DNA of 48,995 nt from Blastopirellula retiformator. GTDB lineage: Bacteria; Planctomycetota; Planctomycetia; Pirellulales; Pirellulaceae. The position numbers and the translations under genes were made by a program. Below, piece after piece: positions 5,765-47,830 of the stretch. Within the stretch, counting starts at the first letter, position 1, and each line of letters begins with the position of its first letter. The notes under the pieces were generated by a model, which was given only the letters and a program-made list of their open reading frames with translations, was not told where the DNA came from and ran no database searches. The stretch covers positions 816,035-865,029 of the forward strand of contig NZ_SJPF01000002.1 in assembly GCF_007859755.1 (NCBI RefSeq), written 5' to 3'.

Positions 5765-5921
5765 TTAGCAGTCCGTTGATTTTCTCGACGGACTGCGTGA
5801 TCGCAGGGATGCGATCCCAAAATAGCGACGTAAGTCGTTATTTTGCGAGCCGCGAAGAGCTACGCTCTGAGCCTGGCGAGGTTGGAAAATGCCACGAGGG
5901 CATTTTTCAACAGGCAGTTAG
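5765..5921. mobile_element. 149-bp palindromic element, copy 1 (5769-5917) with TTAG direct repeats
   Basis: One of four full copies in the window (others at 16794, 29296 and 46325). The element is exactly 149 bp and is flanked by TTAG at 5765-5768 and 5918-5921. It is a string of hairpins: CAGTCCGTTGA/TCGACGGACTG with loop TTTTC; GATCGCA/TGCGATC; CAAAATAGCGAC/GTCGTTATTTTG capped by GTAA; AGAGC/GCTCT; and a last stem ending in GGCATTTTTCAA. The outer ends form an imperfect 11-bp inverted repeat. The right-hand tetramer contains the stop codon (TAA on the minus strand) of the DUF1559 gene. Confidence 0.85.
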
Positions 5922-6847
5922 CTGCTTGGAATCACCTCTCCGTTTTTCCGAGTCGCCATCGCCTTAAGGATGTCTAGGTTGAGCGTCTCAGGCAGGAAGA
6001 TCACGCTGCCGTCGCAGTTGGCGAACATCGCTCCGCCAGGATGATAGCTGGTGAAGGGCGTATTGCTGTTGGTGAATGCGCCGGAATAGTTAATCGGGAA
6101 CTGCACCATCTTGTGGTCGATCATCAGCCACTCGGTGTCGTTGTAGCGATAGAACCCCCACACCCACGGCTTGATTCCGCCAAACCCTTGGGCTCGCGAG
6201 GTCGTCCAACCCTTAGTGCTGGACGATTCGCCGAGCAAAATCGTGTTGGTAGTGCCGTCAACGATGTCGCCGAAGCGGACCTTGCTGCGTGGATAGAGGA
6301 CGCCTGAGGTGACGTAAGGATCACGCCCCGAGGTGGTCGCGGCGACGAGGTCGACGTCGACCGATCCGGCGTTGGCGCGATAGTGCAGCGCGCCTTGTTC
6401 CTGGGAGTGCGGGAAGTAGCCGGTCACCGCATGGTCCGACGCGGTATCGCCCAAGGGAGACGACGGGCACGAAAGCGACGGCACTGGGCCGAAAATTGGG
6501 TTGTCCTGGTTGTGGCTACGATAGGGACTGCGAGTCATCAGGTAGGCAGGAGCGAGCGATTCCATCGCATCGTAACGCGACCCTTGTTCGAAGAAGGGAA
6601 ACAACCGCGGTACCCAGCCAAGCGGATAGGTGACGGTTCCATCGAGTCCCCCCGGCATGAACTTTCCGTAGGTGTCGTGATAATTGTGAAATGACAAACC
6701 GAGCTGCTTCAGGTTGTTGCTGCACTGCATCCGCCGAGCCGCTTCACGAGCTTGCTGCACGGCCGGCAACAACAACGCGATCAGCACGCCGATGATGGCG
6801 ATGACGACTAAGAGTTCAACCAGCGTGAATCCTTGTTTCCGTTTCAT
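5918..6847 (-). CDS. DUF1559 protein with prepilin-type N-terminus
   Basis: A 309-residue planctomycete-type DUF1559 protein. [19 protein letters not shown] is a type IV prepilin leader (cleavage after the Gly before FTLVE) followed by a hydrophobic helix. Next comes the family block [21 protein letters not shown], and the C-terminus holds [17 protein letters not shown], the family's terminal His-Pro-Gly-Gly...Asp-Gly-Ser motif. Pseudopilin-like secreted or surface proteins are massively amplified in planctomycetes; individual roles are unknown. AGAGGA eight bases upstream supports the ATG at 6847. Its TAA stop coincides with the tetramer flanking a 149-bp element. Confidence 0.88.
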
Positions 6848-16609: not shown

Positions 16610-17474
16610 CTACTTCGGCAATGCCAAAAAGGCCGCGACAAGTTGCCGCTCCGCCTGCAGAATCATCTTGTCGCTCAGACGAAACTTGGGTCTTGGCGAA
16701 CCTTGCGGCGTCCAGGCGAATCGACGCCAAAGCGCGAGCACGGCAGGCCCTTCGGCATAGCCTTGCACGCGCAACAAGAGATCGAGTCCGTAGCAGTCCG
16801 TTGATTTTCTCGACGGACTGCGTGATCGCATGGATGCGATCCCAAAATAGCGACGTAAGTCGTTATTTTGGGAGCCGCGAAGAGCTACGCTCTGAGCCTG
16901 GCGAGGTTGAAAAATACCACGATGGCATTTTTCAACAGGCTGGTAGGCCAGTAGCGATCCCCACTGCCGCTGCGGCTGCTCTGACGAACGCCTCGTCCAC
17001 AACAATCTGCTGAGCAGCCGCCAATTGGACCGTCGCCCGGACCATCAACTGATCGGCGTACCTTTTGTGTTTTCTGGTCAAACGTGGCGTTTGCAGATGA
17101 GGGGCGGCGATCATCCAACTGCAGATCGGACAAAAACAGTGGGCGCCAGGCGAGTAGCGTATTCGCCGAGGGTTAGCGACCCAAACAAACGAGTTTTTCA
17201 GATAGGTCGCAAAGAACATCGCAAACGGCGCCAAATTTTCTCGACCGGGACGCGCATTCTACGGAATGTCAAAGTAATGCTCCCGAATCCAAGCCTCAAC
17301 GGCGCTTGGCAACTCGGTGCAGCGATGAACGGTTTGAGTTGGAGAATGAACCATTCCCTGGACGACGCCGCTGGCCATCCAACGAAGTAGCCAATAGCTA
17401 CGACGCTGCATTTCGACGGCCCCCCGCAGCTCGGCGGGTTGAAAGATGCTGCTGAAGTGAGTTTCTCCTGGCAT
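16610..17474 (-). pseudogene. Conserved hypothetical gene broken by nonsense codon, frameshift and 149-bp element
   Basis: A gene of about 236 residues can be reassembled. From ATG 17474 it reads HFSSIFQPAELRGAVEMQRR to IREHYFDIP, then TAG at 17259-17261, then in the same frame NARPGRENLAPFAMFFATYL, a CFCPIC cysteine pair and APHLQTPRLT. Near 16965 a G-run has one extra base; correcting it gives AAAVGSLLAYGLDLLLRVQGY, exactly across the element insertion. The C-terminus is LALWRRFAWTPQGSP to ALPK. Subtracting 153 (element plus tetramer) and 1 from 865 leaves 711 bases, a multiple of three. The family is a planctomycete-type hypothetical, function unknown to me. Confidence 0.75.
16790..16946. 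mobile_element. 149-bp palindromic element, copy 2 (16794-16942) with GTAG direct repeats
   Basis: Inserted inside the gene at 16610-17474. The flanking tetramer is GTAG on both sides (16790-16793 and 16943-16946), differing from the TTAG of the other copies, which argues for a real 4-bp target duplication. In the interrupted gene's corrected frame the insertion (153 bp) adds 51 codons and has no stop. Confidence 0.88.
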
Positions 17475-17691: not shown

Positions 17692-18681
17692 ATGACCTCC
17701 CTCCCCTTTTCGTCTTCGTCGCGACGCGGCGGCTTCACGCTGGTCGAGCTATTGGTGGTGATCGCCATCATCGGCGTTTTGATCGGCTTGCTGTTGCCGG
17801 CCGTACAGCAGGCTCGCGAAGCGGCTCGCCGGATGCAGTGCAGCAACAACCTGAAGCAGCTAGCGCTCGCGGCCCACAACTACGAGTCGACCTTCAAAGC
17901 TTTCCCCTACCCGGCCGAAGATTCGAACTACGGCTACTCGGCCCAGGCGAAGATCCTGCCCTTTATCGAACAAGGAAATTTCCAGGACCGAATCGACTTC
18001 TCGCAGCCGCTGATGGAAGGGGTCAGCTACCTGAAGACCCTCAATCCGATCTACAACGATCTAGTCGGGACCAAAATCGAAGTCCTGCTCTGCCCCAGCG
18101 ATCCCGGAGATCCGCTCTATGTTGACGACGACATCACCTGGGCAGGCGGCAACTACATGATGAACGCCGGGCCGGGCGTCGACACCCAGTACTGCAGCAC
18201 CGCTGACACCGGCGGGCTCTTTTGGCGCGGCAGCGTGATTCGTTTTCGGGACATCACCGATGGCACAAGCAATACGATCCTGATGGCGGAAACGCTGCTT
18301 GGCAATCGCATCGACTCGACCGATCTGGTCGACGCACAAACGCAGATGCGCTCGACCAGTGGCGGGGGTTCTCCCTGCTCGGTCTCGGCCGCCGATCTCG
18401 ACGCTCGTTCGGTCTCTAGCTACTACGGCCGCCGCGCCGGGCAGTGGCTGCGCAATCTGACTTACCATTCGTTCATCAACGGCTATTTTCCGCCCAACTC
18501 GGCGTCGCCTGACATTCTGTTCCACGGCGATGGGGTGATGGGCGCCCGCAGCCAACATCCCGGCGGCGCCATGGTCAGCCTGGCCGACGGCAGCGTTCGA
18601 TTTGTTGGCGAGACAGTCGACCTATCGACGTGGCGAAATCTGTTTGCCCGCAACGACGGCCAGGTACCTGGCGAATACTAG
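17692..18681 (+). CDS. DUF1559 protein with prepilin-type N-terminus
   Basis: 329 residues. After a 13-residue leader, [19 protein letters not shown] is the prepilin cleavage site and hydrophobic helix, followed by the [21 protein letters not shown] block. The C-terminal family motif is seen as QHPGGAMVSLADGSVRFVGE. AAGGAG upstream fixes ATG 17692. It opens a plus-strand cluster with a PQQ-type propeller 35 bases downstream, then a lipoprotein and an AztD-like propeller. Likely a surface-exposed pseudopilin-like protein; its function is unknown. Confidence 0.88.
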   Translation: MTSLPFSSSSRRGGFTLVELLVVIAIIGVLIGLLLPAVQQAREAARRMQCSNNLKQLALAAHNYESTFKAFPYPAEDSNYGYSAQAKILPFIEQGNFQDRIDFSQPLMEGVSYLKTLNPIYNDLVGTKIEVLLCPSDPGDPLYVDDDITWAGGNYMMNAGPGVDTQYCSTADTGGLFWRGSVIRFRDITDGTSNTILMAETLLGNRIDSTDLVDAQTQMRSTSGGGSPCSVSAADLDARSVSSYYGRRAGQWLRNLTYHSFINGYFPPNSASPDILFHGDGVMGARSQHPGGAMVSLADGSVRFVGETVDLSTWRNLFARNDGQVPGEY

Positions 18682-27254: not shown

Positions 27255-27537
27255 CGCTCGGTTCGCCTTATTCTCTGCCGGTAAATTCCGAAGACGGGTC
27301 GTCGTGACGCCGTTCTCTTCGTCGAATGCTGATCCTACTTTTTCAATCGCCCTCGCACTCTCTCTATCGAAGCCGATTCCGCTCCATAATGGGATCCCTC
27401 TTCCTACGTAATTGGCGAAGAACCTTCCCCTACAATTTGTCCAATTTAACCCAAGCTTGATTCAAAAGGCGTACAAAGGCCGGTACAATCAGCAAAGTCG
27501 CGGCAAAGTTCACCAAATTTCGTGGAGAAACCAGAGT

Positions 27538-29205
27538 ATGATTCGCAGTTTATTACTTCTCGCTACGATCACCGCATCGCTGAGTGCGGTCGACGTGGCC
27601 CAGGCGTGTCGTCGCTGTCGACCGGGTTGTCCGCCCGCTTGCGCGACCCCCTGCGACGCACCTTGCGAACCTGAGGTGCAGTACGTCGAAAAAACGATCA
27701 TGGTTCCGGTGCGGTCGTATGAAACGCGCACCATTACTTGTACGGAGATGCGTCCAGAGGTCCGGCAAAAGACGATCACCGTTTATCGCTGCGTTCCGGA
27801 AACGACTTCCGTGACGCGGACGTATACGGTGATGGTCCCGGAAACCTTGACCAAAACCGTTGAGTACACCGTTCGTAAGCCGATCTACGGCACCAAAGAG
27901 GTGACCAACACGGTCATGGTTCCGACGTATGAGACCCGCGAAGGAGTCCACAACGTCTGCCGCACCGTTCCGGAGACGCTGACGAAAACGGTGAACTACA
28001 CCGTCCGCAAGCCGATTTACGGCACCAAGGACGTCACCAAGACCATTATGGTTCCGACCTATGAAACCCGCAAAGGGGTTCGCACGGTCTGCAAAATGGT
28101 TCCGGAAACGATGACCAAGACGGTCAATTACACCGTCTGCAAACCGGTCTACGGCACCAAAGAGGTCACCAAGACCGAAATGGTTCCGACGTACGAAACC
28201 CGCGAAGGGATCCGCAATGTCTGCAAGATGATTTCCGAGACGGCGACCAAAACGGTCAACTACACCGTCTGCAAACCGGTTCACGGCACCAAGACGGTCA
28301 CCAAGACCGAGATGGTTCCGTCGTACGAAATGCGGGAAGGTACTCGCATGGCTTGCAAAATGGTTCCCACGACGATTACCAAGACCGTCTGCAAGGACCA
28401 AGGCTGCTGGCAAGACGTGGTCGTGACGGACTGCTGCGGTTGCGAAAAAACCTGCCGCAAGTGGGTTCCGAACGTCGTTCAGGTCGAAGTCCCCTGCACG
28501 GTGATGAAGCCGGTCCGCGAAGAAGTCCCGTACACCTACAAGGTGTGCGTGATGAAACCGGTTGAAAAAACCTACGAAGTCGCGACTTGCACCTACGAGT
28601 CCGAAGTCGTCTCGAAAGAAGTTCCCTACACCGTTTGCAAGCAAGTGACCGAGCAGGTCCCGTACACCTACAAGGTCTGCGTGATGAAGCCGGTCGAAAA
28701 GACGTACACGGTCAACACCTGCGAATACGTGCAGAAAACGCTTTCGAAGGAAGTGAGCTACACCGTCTGCAAACAGGTCACCGAGCAGATCCCGTATTCT
28801 TACAAAGTGTGCGTGATGAAGCCGGTTGAAAAAACCTACACGGTTCAAACGTGCGACTATGTCGACGAAGTCAAGTCGAAAGAAGTCTGCTACACCGTCT
28901 GCAAGCAGGTCACCGAACAAGTCCCGTATTCCTACAAGGTTTGCGTGATGAAGCCGGTTGAGAAAACTCGCACGGTCAAGACTTGCAAATATGTCGACGA
29001 GGTCATGACCAAGGAAGTGCCGTACACGGTCTGCCGCGCCGAAACGCGTGAAAAGACCTGCGACGTCACGACCTACAAGCAAGTTCCGGAAGAAAAGGTG
29101 GTCGACTACACCTGCATGGTTCCGGTTGAAGTGACCAAAGAAGTCAAGGTGCCCGTCTGCAAGATGGTCCCCAAGACGATCACCGTGCCGAAGTGCGGTT
29201 GCTAA
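27538..29205 (+). CDS. YTV-repeat Cys-rich envelope protein
   Basis: 555 residues with a signal peptide (MIRSLLLLATITASLSAVDVAQA) and a Cys/Pro-rich segment (CRRCRPGCPPACATPCDAPC). The rest is Lys/Thr/Val/Cys-rich repeats of the planctomycete YTV type. Two repeat families are visible, both with a 44-residue (132-base) period: about four units of KTVNYTVCKPVYGTKEVTKT...MVPTYETREG, then, after a non-repeat linker (CWQDVVVTDCCGCEKTCRKW), about four to five units of YTVCKQVTEQVPYTYKVCVM...KPVEKTYTV. YTV proteins have been linked to the proteinaceous planctomycete cell wall, where disulfide cross-links are likely. GGAG precedes ATG 27538; a terminator follows the stop. Confidence 0.88.
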   Translation: MIRSLLLLATITASLSAVDVAQACRRCRPGCPPACATPCDAPCEPEVQYVEKTIMVPVRSYETRTITCTEMRPEVRQKTITVYRCVPETTSVTRTYTVMVPETLTKTVEYTVRKPIYGTKEVTNTVMVPTYETREGVHNVCRTVPETLTKTVNYTVRKPIYGTKDVTKTIMVPTYETRKGVRTVCKMVPETMTKTVNYTVCKPVYGTKEVTKTEMVPTYETREGIRNVCKMISETATKTVNYTVCKPVHGTKTVTKTEMVPSYEMREGTRMACKMVPTTITKTVCKDQGCWQDVVVTDCCGCEKTCRKWVPNVVQVEVPCTVMKPVREEVPYTYKVCVMKPVEKTYEVATCTYESEVVSKEVPYTVCKQVTEQVPYTYKVCVMKPVEKTYTVNTCEYVQKTLSKEVSYTVCKQVTEQIPYSYKVCVMKPVEKTYTVQTCDYVDEVKSKEVCYTVCKQVTEQVPYSYKVCVMKPVEKTRTVKTCKYVDEVMTKEVPYTVCRAETREKTCDVTTYKQVPEEKVVDYTCMVPVEVTKEVKVPVCKMVPKTITVPKCGC

Positions 29206-29291: not shown

Positions 29292-29448
29292 TTAGCCGGC
29301 CGTTGATTTTCTCGACGGACTGCGTGATCGCATGGATGCGATCCCAAAATAGCGACGTAAGTCGTTATTTTGCGAGCCGCGAAGAGCTACGCTCTGAGCC
29401 TGGCGAGGTTGAAAAATGCCACGATGGCATTTTTCAACAGGCAGTTAG
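29292..29448. mobile_element. 149-bp palindromic element, copy 3 (29296-29444) with TTAG direct repeats
   Basis: Flanked by TTAG at 29292-29295 and 29445-29448. It contains the full set of hairpins, with a perfect 13-bp final stem (TTGAAAAATGCCA / TGGCATTTTTCAA). The first stem has drifted (CCGG instead of CAGT). The right tetramer supplies the TAA stop of the TerB/HNH-like gene. Confidence 0.88.
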
Positions 29449-30419
29449 TCATTCGCCTGGCAGGCACAGCGGCGGCAGAGCAACTGAATGTTACTTTCTT
29501 CATCTCCCCCGCCCATCGCTTTCGAGATGATCCGCATCAGTTCCAGATAGTCGCCGGCGCTGCACGCGGCGCAGCGACCGTTGTATTTGCGCCAGACGCG
29601 ATCGCGCAACTCCCGCGAGATCGTCATCGCTTCGAGCGCGGTTGCCCCTTCCAGGCGTGACTTAAGCCGCGCCATTTCGTTGACGACGTATTGGCAGAAA
29701 TCGCTCGGCATTTCCAACTGCTGCAGCAACCAAACCATCGTTTCTTCTTCGTGCCGCGTAATCACGCCGTCCGCCTTGGCGTCGACGATCACATGCTCGA
29801 CAAATTCGCGGGCCTGATAGCGGATCGCTTGCAGAAACTCTTGATGCGAAATCCCCAATTGATCGGCCGAGTTGAGCAGCGACGCCCATTCTTCGGTCAT
29901 CAGGTGATTGTCGGCGATCGCTTCGAGGAACATGCCGCGGAGAAATTTCTCTCCTTCGGCCTGAAAAAAGACGCCGGCGAAGGTCGACATCGGCATGCCG
30001 ATCGTATCGCTAATTTGTTGCAGCCGCCGTTGGTCGTCCTTGTCGAGCACGCCGTCGGCCATCGCCCGACTTAGCGCCGCCGCAAACTGCTTTTTGGCGA
30101 GTTGCAGTTCGATCGCCGTGTATTCCCCTTCCGGCAATTGCAGCTTTTCGGCAATCCAGCGAGCGGTCGTTTGTTCGTCAGCCGTAAACTGGCCGTCCTC
30201 CCAAGCGCGCTCGACGACTTTGCGATAGATCGCCTGCTTGGCCTGATCGAGATCCTGCGGATCGCAGGAAACGACCGAGAGCGCCGTCGCAACGGAGAAC
30301 GTTTCCGGATTTTGTGCCAAGGCCGCTTCCAAAAGATCGGTCAGCGCGCGGACGCGCGACTCTACTTCATCTTTTTTCTTCTGATTAGCGACCAGCGTCG
30401 AGTCGGCAGAGGACACGCG
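29445..30419 (-). CDS. TerB-like protein with degenerate HNH-type zinc finger
   Basis: 324 residues, all-helical and acidic, with two or three TerB-like modules: units such as AMADGVLDKDDQRRLQQISDTI and VDAKADGVITRHEEETMVWLL have the Asp-Gly...Glu pattern typical of TerB metal-binding helices. The C-terminus resembles an HNH module: DRVWRKYNGRCAAC (CxxC at 283-286), LELMRIISKAMGGG, SNIQLLCRRC (CxxC at 315-318). The His-His/Asp-His pair expected at the catalytic position is Met-Arg, so zinc may bind without nuclease activity. GTG 30419, preceded by AAAGGG, is preferred over the open frame to 30515. Its stop abuts a 149-bp element. Confidence 0.65.
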   Translation of the reverse strand, partial: RVSSADSTLVANQKKKDEVESRVRALTDLLEAALAQNPETFSVATALSVVSCDPQDLDQAKQAIYRKVVERAWEDGQFTADEQTTARWIAEKLQLPEGEYTAIELQLAKKQFAAALSRAMADGVLDKDDQRRLQQISDTIGMPMSTFAGVFFQAEGEKFLRGMFLEAIADNHLMTEEWASLLNSADQLGISHQEFLQAIRYQAREFVEHVIVDAKADGVITRHEEETMVWLLQQLEMPSDFCQYVVNEMARLKSRLEGATALEAMTISRELRDRVWRKYNGRCAACSAGDYLELMRIISKAMGGGDEESNIQLLCRRCACQAND

Positions 30420-30725
30420 ATACCCTTTCGGTAAGATCCGATCAATTTGCGGCAAGTAGCCGCAACCACATGCAAAGTTAGGCCGCTCGACTGTCGCAGG
30501 TCGCCTGCGCCGCAAAGGTGGGGCGAAATTCGCCTCGCCGCGGAGCCTGCAGGTCTCCGAATCGCGTCAACCGGCACAATCGCTCTGGAGCCTGGCGAAA
30601 CACGGTGGCGACAAATTAAGGCGATATGTCGGAACAAAACTACAAGACGGGTTGACCGGCCGCAATTTATGCAGCGATAATCGAGTCCTGCCTCTATTCC
30701 TCCCGCCTAGAGTTGCCGACACCTG
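30420..30725. other. Divergent intergenic region
   Basis: 306 bases between divergent TerB/HNH-like and yeiH-like genes. It should contain both promoters; no clear operator, RNA gene or repeat was seen. Confidence 0.5.
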
Positions 30726-46320: not shown

Positions 46321-46477
46321 TTAGCAGTCCGTTGATTTTCTCAACGGGCTGCTGGATCGCAGGGATGCGATCCCCAAATAGCGACGTAAGTCGTTAATTT
46401 GCGAGCCGCGAAGAGCTACGCTCTGAGCCTGGCGAGGTTGAAAAATGCCACGATGGCATTTTTCAACAGGCAGTTAG
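46321..46477. mobile_element. 149-bp palindromic element, copy 4 (46325-46473) with TTAG direct repeats
   Basis: Flanked by TTAG at 46321-46324 and 46474-46477. Most diverged copy, yet its length is still exactly 149. In its first stem (CAGTCCGTTGA / TCAACGGGCTG) one position changed from wobble to Watson-Crick and another the reverse, so pairing is kept. The rest of the 46147-46589 interval shows nothing else. Confidence 0.85.
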
Positions 46478-46568: not shown

Positions 46569-47830
46569 GCACGGCGATCGCACCATAAATCACGTCCCCA
46601 GCAACACTTCCAGCAGATAGGCGTCGTTCCGACCCGCTTTTAGCCGCTTGTTCTTCACGCCCACCTTGGCTGTTTTGTTGTTCTTCAAGAGGCTCAGGCT
46701 CGTTCTTCTTAGCAGGCTGAAGTTGATGTCGGCGTGTCCTTTGCGGATGCGGCTTTGGTCCTCGCTGAACGTTACGTCGAGTTGCCAATGCAAACTGTTC
46801 TCGATACCCCAGTGACCACGGACCGCTTCGGCGAAGCGTTTTCCCGTGAGGTATTTGCTAACGATATAGTAGCGGACGTCGCTTGTCTCTTTGCCGTTTT
46901 GCTTGACGATGTTGATCGTCATGCCGATCGCCTTCAGGCTCTTCCACTTGCTCGCGTACGGAAAATCATCCGCATCGATCGGGCAGAGATAATAGTAGCG
47001 CGACTCCTCGCGGCCATGCCCTTTCTCGTGCGTTTCGTGACGATGAACTTTCAGCTTCTTGAAGTCGATTTCCATCGCGGCGACGAAGTGATCGCGAATC
47101 GCTTGATGCAGATAACGCTGATTTCCTTTGATCGCCAGGCAATAATCGCCGCCTGCGTCGACGATCTTGGCGGCGATCTCTTTCTGACAACCCATCGCGT
47201 CGATCGTCACCAAACAGCCGGAAACCTCGATGATTTCGAGCAATTTCGGAATCGCCGTGATCTCGTTACTCTTGGCGTCGGTCGCCACTTGACCGAGGCT
47301 CACATGATTAGCGGTCGCCCAGGCGCTGACCATGTGAATCGCCGCCTTGCTGCTGGCGGCGTCGAAACCGCGCCGCAACGTCTTGGCGTCGATCGCGATG
47401 ATTTGTCCGTCGGTGATCTCTTGCAGCGCCGTGATCCAACTCAGCAAACACTTCTCGAACTCGGCCGGCTTCAGCGCGCCGAGAATCGCGTTGAAACGAT
47501 CATGCGAAGGGACGCCGCTGCTCATGTCGAGAAACTTCGAAAGCCACTCCTTCTTATCCTCCGCCCAATCGGCGATGGCGACAAAATCGTCCGCCCCGCC
47601 GAGCACCGCGCAGAGCGACATCGTGACGATGTTGACCAGCGGATAAGTCACCTTCCGCGTGCGCGGATCGGTCAGGTCGGCAAAGTGCTGTTGAATCGAA
47701 GCGGCCGAAGAAGACATGCGGAAGACCTCCCTGCAAAGCGAACGCCTGGCGGCGAAACGGACGTCGCGAAATCGCCAAGACGTATTTGCCGGATTATCGC
47801 AGATTGCCCATCATGGCGCAATCGCCGTGC
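46569..47830 (-). mobile_element. ISAs1-family insertion sequence
   Basis: Contains one complete transposase gene (46590-47717). Candidate imperfect terminal inverted repeats are GCACGGCGATCGCACCATAA (46569-46588) and the complement of 47811-47830, matching at 17 of 20 positions; the transposase stop abuts the left one. No clear target duplication at these exact ends, so the true tips could be a few bases outside. Confidence 0.65.
46590..47717 (-). CDS. ISAs1-family transposase
   Basis: 375 residues, full length for the family. The N-terminal H_repeat-associated region (IQQHFADLTDPRTRKVTYPL, then VGVPSHDRF-like SSGVPSHDRFNAIL) is followed by the DDE domain: QIIAIDAKTLRRG (first Asp), VTIDAMGCQKEIAAKI (second Asp) and RGHWGIENSLHWQLDVTFSED (the Glu region). 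No frameshift or stop, so it could be active. Start ATG 47717. Lies next to an IS3-family element and a 149-bp repeat, marking this end of the window as an insertion hotspot. Confidence 0.92.
   Translation of the reverse strand: MSSSAASIQQHFADLTDPRTRKVTYPLVNIVTMSLCAVLGGADDFVAIADWAEDKKEWLSKFLDMSSGVPSHDRFNAILGALKPAEFEKCLLSWITALQEITDGQIIAIDAKTLRRGFDAASSKAAIHMVSAWATANHVSLGQVATDAKSNEITAIPKLLEIIEVSGCLVTIDAMGCQKEIAAKIVDAGGDYCLAIKGNQRYLHQAIRDHFVAAMEIDFKKLKVHRHETHEKGHGREESRYYYLCPIDADDFPYASKWKSLKAIGMTINIVKQNGKETSDVRYYIVSKYLTGKRFAEAVRGHWGIENSLHWQLDVTFSEDQSRIRKGHADINFSLLRRTSLSLLKNNKTAKVGVKNKRLKAGRNDAYLLEVLLGT

Follow-up and report, generated by a model that had tools for sequence, protein, structure and literature searches.

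The repeated element described here, which is 149 bp long and has four copies in the window (the whole stretch of Blastopirellula retiformator DNA that was analysed, 48,995 nucleotides), is almost certainly mobile and duplicates a YTAR target of 4 bp on insertion. Judged by its sequence it is a predicted non-autonomous element (MITE) of the IS1182 type, with ends and target matching IS1182-family elements of relatives; it is short, carries no transposase, occurs in many copies and has imperfect terminal inverted repeats (TIRs) of 11 bp along with the target duplication. The folded body between its ends has probably been selected for the structure of the + strand, and mobility and this selection are probably both present in one element. 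We also discuss the tentative reading that it may be a mobile CsrA-binding RNA module, in which the + strand RNA is selected, the ends have been switched between transposase partners and about 230-300 places of the genome, frequently at the ends of genes, have been seeded with CsrA sites.

The positions of the four copies, which have a mean column identity of 97%, and of the parts of copy 1 are given in Table 1. The initial annotation had described copies of exactly 149 bp bracketed by the same tetramer on both sides, outer imperfect 11-bp inverted repeats and about five consecutive hairpins, one of them with a GNRA-type GTAA loop, and this description was borne out: all four copies measure 149 bp, the tetramers TTAG, GTAG, TTAG and TTAG were found on both sides of the respective copies, CAGTCCGTTGA and CTGCCTGTTGA agree in 8 of 11 letters (by eye), five hairpins were found and the GTAA loop is present. 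The right TTAG of copy 1 contains the stop codon of a - strand ORF (5918-6847), the right TTAG of copy 3 contains that of another (- strand, 29445-30515), and copy 4 adjoins an ISAs1-family transposase gene (46590-47717, - strand). Apart from the element, the window has a long open frame (27412-29205) with two families of 132-bp tandem repeats at 27832-28994, and an inverted repeat of 131 nt (6702-6832 and 17731-17861, 88% complementary) which is perhaps formed by two paralogous genes on opposite strands.

Table 1. Copies of the element in the window and parts of copy 1
Feature	Position	Strand	Remarks
Copy 1 with both 4-bp target duplications	5765..5921	+	TTAG at 5765-5768 and 5918-5921
Copy 2 with GTAG target duplications	16790..16946	+	element proper 16794-16942
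Copy 3 with TTAG target duplications	29292..29448	+	element proper 29296-29444
Copy 4 with TTAG target duplications	46321..46477	+	element proper 46325-46473
Left TIR	5769..5779	+	CAGTCCGTTGA; 5' arm of hairpin H1; resembles IS1182 ends
Right TIR	5907..5917	-	CTGCCTGTTGA on the - strand
Hairpin H1	5769..5795	+	left TIR and inverted subterminal copy of left TIR
Hairpin H2	5799..5816	+	loop A-N-GGA-T (5805-5810), C-G closing pair; Csr/Rsm-type site (sequence match)
Hairpin H3	5818..5845	+	GNRA-type loop GTAA at 5830-5833
Hairpin H4	5849..5877	+	tandem G.A mismatches, Watson-Crick pairs instead in some relatives
Hairpin H5	5881..5911	+	3' arm extends into right TIR

The genome-wide search was done on the host assembly, a 6.2-Mb draft (97% complete) in which the window lies on contig C2. 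The core of the element gave 118+113 = 231 matches (67-base pattern, up to 3 mismatches; reversed-pattern control 0), and its right end gave 148+150 = 298 (up to 2 mismatches; control 0), a count which can take in truncated or interrupted copies. From the own genome 147 distinct near-full copies, partly picked by similarity and not a random sample, were examined, of which 138 are 149 bp long; the family proposed from four copies, with its fixed length, was thus recovered genome-wide. Identical 4-bp flanks are present in 105 of the 147 copies and missing in 42, against an expectation, obtained by permuting the right flanks in 2000 trials, of 28.4 on average and 45 at the maximum; the positions just beyond the tetramer agree at about chance (42/147 and 35/147). 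The duplicated tetramers, mostly YTAR, come in ten versions (TTAG 35, CTAG 30, CTAA 22, TTAA 7, ATAG 5, GTAG 2 and four singles). As the flanks co-vary as pairs, the tetramers are confirmed to be a 4-bp target-site duplication, which had been supposed earlier from the GTAG pair of copy 2.

The empty sites were seen in a second repeat family, into which three copies of the element are inserted, with flanks of CTAA/CTAA at L053 and of CTAA/CCAA at L160 and L148; other copies of the same repeat (e.g. L179, L147, L216 and L191) read unbroken CTCACTAACGCC, which is the empty site. The exact flanks at L053 together with the unbroken copies therefore indicate insertion with a 4-bp YTAR duplication. 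The second repeat family, which is presumably an IS630-type (TA-target) MITE, is about 157 bp long and ends in GAGCG(G/T)TTTTC adjoining TA (L179:1609-1769, L147:2688-2847, L013:1338-1503 and others); it often abuts the duplicated YTAR of the 149-bp element besides serving as its target. An insertion sequence of 1.7 kb that bears MITE ends (L098, L100) was considered as the autonomous parent and was rejected, because the junctions show an IS4-family insertion into the H5 palindrome. This insertion duplicates 12-13 bp (L100 agrees in 13/13 letters, L098 has one mismatch; the MITE of L101 is truncated), the same insertion sequence is also present outside MITEs (L099), and the protein of L098 was assigned to the IS4 family. 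Three IS4-family insertions lie at one spot of the H5 palindrome (L098, L100 and L101), which looks like either a hotspot for the IS4-family element or a composite mobilised as a unit.

The gene context of the copies was read from longest-ORF calls, which are crude. Although the sampled loci are 87% coding, 110 of the 147 copies are intergenic; the contexts are convergent for 39, divergent for 18 and tandem for 23 and 30, so that the orientation preference in tandem contexts is not clear. In 37 of the 105 copies with exact duplication an ORF of 100 aa or more has its stop codon within the tetramer, whereas the background in the same loci is 236 of 3145 other YTAR sites, or 229 of the 1349 such sites outside ORFs. 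Since YTAR contains TAA or TAG, an insertion would re-create the stop codon and may survive there without any special targeting. The + strand is antisense to the ORF ending at the element in 25 of these 37 copies, which counts against simple sense read-through from the stop-codon gene.

The mobilisation in trans, which had been implied earlier by the lack of a transposase, holds up, as the ends and the target match IS1182-family elements of relatives. In the own genome one IS1182-family remnant (L104) was found with the Pfam domains DUF772 and DDE_Tnp_1; its best NCBIfam match is IS1182 at 163 bits, below the model cut-off of 270, and its sole readable end is CAGCCCGTTGA beside CTAG. The IS1182-family elements of relatives which have two ends and the same tetramer beside both carry CAGCCTGTTGA/CCGCCCGTTGA or CAGCCCGTTGA with CTAG or TTAG (L113, L114, L119 and L134; the transposase gene of L119 is broken by a stop), and a second end type, CAGGCTGCTGAAAAAG with CTAG or TTAA, was found in L115 and L136. 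This second type is also carried by a MITE subfamily of genome G025. The transposases of class A (L104, L134, L114 and L113) are 57-62% identical to each other and those of class B (L115, L136) 73%, whereas the identity between the two classes is 22-27%. A third G025 subfamily has CAGGCCGGGGAAG ends in 15 places, near which no partner for these ends was found by tblastn with seven IS1182-type proteins.

An intact IS1182 element with matching ends was not found in the own genome (assembly 97% complete), which gave only the one-ended L104, and no matching end pair was seen for a 437-aa IS1182 gene at L110. When body models were run on 10 IS1182 loci and on 10 loci including class B, no match inside them was obtained, and only an adjacent MITE copy in L110, one of the first set, scored; the element is therefore not an internal-deletion derivative of those IS1182 elements. 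ISAs1-family elements, with 10 long copies and a family assignment made on the one copy in the window, were rejected as mobiliser, because beside them an end-pattern scan detected just one isolated end, at L091, and no paired ends.

The interior of the element is common to the copies of the genus (G001-G003) and to those of G025 and G027, which belong to two further families of the order. It was analyzed in a sequence-only alignment (A2) of 57 rows, comprising the window copy, 15 own copies (the less similar ones out of 24 spread picks) and 41 full-length copies of relatives, with partial and decayed copies left out. The five-hairpin structure pairs 93.7% of the 3060 cells of this alignment, and the pairing falls to 36-44% in controls with slid partners. 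Both sides have changed in 22 of the 55 pairs, and 240 double-change cells were counted against 71.4 in shuffled data (0/500 as high), although the cells are not independent and relatedness inflates these counts; that base changes tend to preserve pairing, as noticed first among the window copies, is thereby upheld. Whole arms change jointly, and all four TIR-like arms are altered in the end-switched subfamilies.

The strand was judged from wobble pairs and from folding. On the + strand, pairs with a majority wobble in some group are G.T in 7 cases and A.C in 1 (in G025 type 2, which may be an alignment slip), and the wobble cells are 148 G.T and 30 A.C. As RNA, copy 1 folds at -73.4 kcal/mol on the + strand (z -7.5, 0/200 shuffles as low) and at -57.4 kcal/mol on the - strand. 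A cruciform has no strand preference, so the G.T-biased fixed wobbles and the better fold of the + strand speak against it. A 77-bp version, L337 (G025 C1:128171-128253), which is flanked left and right by CTAG, has retained the ends together with part of H4 and H5 but has neither H2 nor H3; the body may thus be unneeded for movement, unless the deletion came after insertion. Compared with Rfam, the whole window gave 0 matches that reached the gathering score; around copy 1 the best score at E<=10 was 14.6 bits. A consensus scan of one copy, copy 1, gave no match to a sigma-70 promoter or an intrinsic terminator.

The distribution among other genomes was searched at several levels. Within the family, matches were obtained in 7 of 119 genomes, own included, with limited scoring, and the candidate explanation of a family-wide chromosomal RNA gene was not supported by this distribution. 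Across the phylum they were obtained in at least 8 of 392, own included, an undercount, since 7 candidates were scored per genome and neither G025 nor G027 is among the genomes matched. The exact body pattern occurs in 32 stretches of GTDB r220 (one genome per species), 31 of them in the Pirellulales MAG IP29b_bin.168 and the remaining 1 in a Planctomycetia MAG from groundwater. Plasmids gave no match to the element, and viral contigs gave one (L354) whose flank is the same as that of the own-genome locus L019; the viral collection seems to hold a prophage-like piece of the host genome or of a close one. In a sister genus (g38) the genomes of three species (G371, G417 and G243) have one body match each, which is without the full TIR hairpin; in all three it is found at the corresponding place of one tRNA array, with tRNA-Asp on one side and tRNA-Val/tRNA-Cys on the other, and on the strand opposite to the tRNAs; the fourth genome, G365, gave no body match. 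Despite differing stems, 46 of 48 pairs are formed in G371 and 41 of 44 in G417, and most of H4 is lost in G243. Another orthologous locus, more decayed, is shared by G001 and G003, and in these orthologues A.C cells outnumber G.T (8 to 4 and 6 to 4), as in decayed copies.

Hairpin H2 usually reads C-A-N-G-G-A-T-G at its loop, with GGA in 132 of 138 own copies and N free among them (G68, C40, T29, A1). The published high-affinity site of Csr/Rsm proteins is described, in the part of the account used here, as a hexaloop, ANGGAX, above a stem with a C-G closing pair, and some natural sites lack the N (PMC4005645); selection by SELEX gave the consensus RUACARGGAUGU (PMC7652899). The strict form C-A(N)GGAX-G was found in H2 in 126 of 138 own copies, in 51 of 57 rows of A2 and in 37 of 43 rows of a further alignment (A3), which includes very different stems (G371, G417, G037, G218 and others) and was fitted to structure with 41 hand-picked loci. 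GGA is retained in 41 of the 43 A3 rows, of which eight outgroup rows agree with copy 1 in 4 to 13 of the 14 letters of the H2 stem. Most G027 rows, as well as G025 type 3, have no N in the loop, and the A of the loop is replaced by C in 4 of 5 G025 type-2 rows and by T in L066 and L256.

The element therefore has a C-G closed A(N)GGAX loop in a host with CsrA, since 13 CsrA-domain matches were found in the own genome and 3 to 14 in every one of the 40 genomes searched, among which it is counted. The conserved loop and these domains make binding plausible, and it is possible, though doubtful, that H2 is bound by CsrA. The GGA loop lies in one of the five hairpins only, which differs from the several GGA loops per RNA of the sponge class. 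Some of the CsrA-domain matches sit in open frames of 260-390 codons. In another planctomycete family (G218), L261 and L269 have a similar five-hairpin plan with GGA in the H2 loop and very different stems; by eye, L269 has GGA also at the tip of H3, and both have GGAT in the H5 loop region.

The explanation which we favour is that an IS1182-family transposase would move the MITE in trans, for which the match of ends and target is observed, and that it would recognise CAGnCyGTTGA-type ends and duplicate the YTAR target, the duplication itself being seen. The enrichment of insertions at stop codons would be due to survival, as the gene is kept intact. The body would be conserved as a structured + strand, most likely in the form of RNA that arises by transcriptional read-through, and H2 would offer its A(N)GGAX loop for the binding of host CsrA, which would be the likeliest role of the body, so that each transcribed copy may act as a CsrA-binding module. 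MITE subfamilies sharing the body bear ends which match at least two unrelated IS1182 groups.

Four other explanations were weighed against this one. The element may be an ordinary MITE with hairpins that work solely at the DNA level, as a cruciform or as single strand at the replication fork, and aid the recognition of the ends without any RNA role; this is rather unlikely. The TIRs do lie inside both terminal hairpins H1 and H5, the four TIR-like arms change jointly, the + strand of copy 1 folds well as DNA too (z -7.3) and no clear orientation bias is seen relative to tandem genes. A cruciform, however, folds both strands, yet the fixed wobbles of the + strand are mostly G.T; the IS1182 ends (about 36 bases each) are by eye without the inverted subterminal copy; and H2, H3 and H4 are conserved by paired changes away from the ends, with ANGGAX and GNRA loops. 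A SINE-like origin, with a chromosomal non-coding RNA captured between IS1182 ends, is unlikely: the single body at one place of the tRNA array in three g38 species, with nearly all pairs kept in two of them, would suit it, but an old insertion that was kept later explains these loci equally well, G365 has no match, few genomes of the family have the body and it is antisense to the tRNAs.

The location of the copies, intergenic, more often convergent than divergent and frequent at stop codons, would also be expected of an insulator or terminator cassette tolerated by the host at gene ends, which we regard as improbable, because retention bias accounts for the location, the GGA and GNRA loops are left unexplained and the intrinsic terminator was not matched in the one copy scanned. 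REP/RAYT repeats have a fixed tetramer tag and no target duplication. A single-strand element of this type or of the IS200/IS605 type agrees with the strand-specific hairpins and with a tetramer adjoining a hairpin (GTAG in copy 2), but it is hardly credible here, as the flanking tetramer is a duplication that comes in ten versions and the paired TIRs match IS1182-family DDE transposons.

The bacterial MITEs are usually regarded as shrunken insertion sequences without cargo. To our knowledge NEMIS, ERIC, RUP and YPAL depend on different transposases and lack a loop of the Csr/Rsm type; their likeness to the present element is that of a short, non-coding, TIR-bounded element. They are described, in the portion of the source used here, as bacterial MITEs which often lie beside genes and are transcribed (PMC3733652). 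The IS1182 insertion sequences themselves are alike in ends and YTAR target, whereas the element has no transposase and its interior is unrelated. A close case is that of the IS1182-related MITEs of Methanosarcina acetivorans, for which a table row gives the partner ISMac2, a size of 160 bp and 14 copies and ends in 26 and 4, which we took as the lengths of the inverted and direct repeats (PMC3852290). Compared by description only, both have an IS1182 partner and similar size, whereas those MITEs are archaeal and in 14 copies and the present family has 231-298 matches, a covarying multi-hairpin body and end switching. As regards the loop, the Csr/Rsm hairpins of CsrB, RsmZ and hcnA have, in the accounts as far as used here, an A(N)GGAX loop above a stem closed by C-G as well, N being variable or absent (PMC7652899, PMC4005645); CsrB and RsmZ carry several such loops, whereas the 149-bp element carries one and is mobile DNA. 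Among the titles and abstract starts retrieved on IS1182, planctomycete, MITE-RNA and CsrA topics, none was found to describe the element, or any MITE containing a Csr site.

An IS1182 MITE is thus a known kind of element, and what is unusual here is the very high copy number, the strand-biased structural conservation, the ends matching unrelated transposase groups and the canonical Csr/Rsm-type loop. The interior outlives the ends, as one folded body is found with ends that match two IS1182 groups whose proteins are below 27% identity, and the loop of the body matches the binding site of a global regulator. Should the RNA be transcribed and bound, mobile DNA would have repeatedly supplied ready-made regulatory sites to planctomycetes, which are rich in CsrA-domain genes, and the element offers a testable case of RNA-structure selection on a selfish element.
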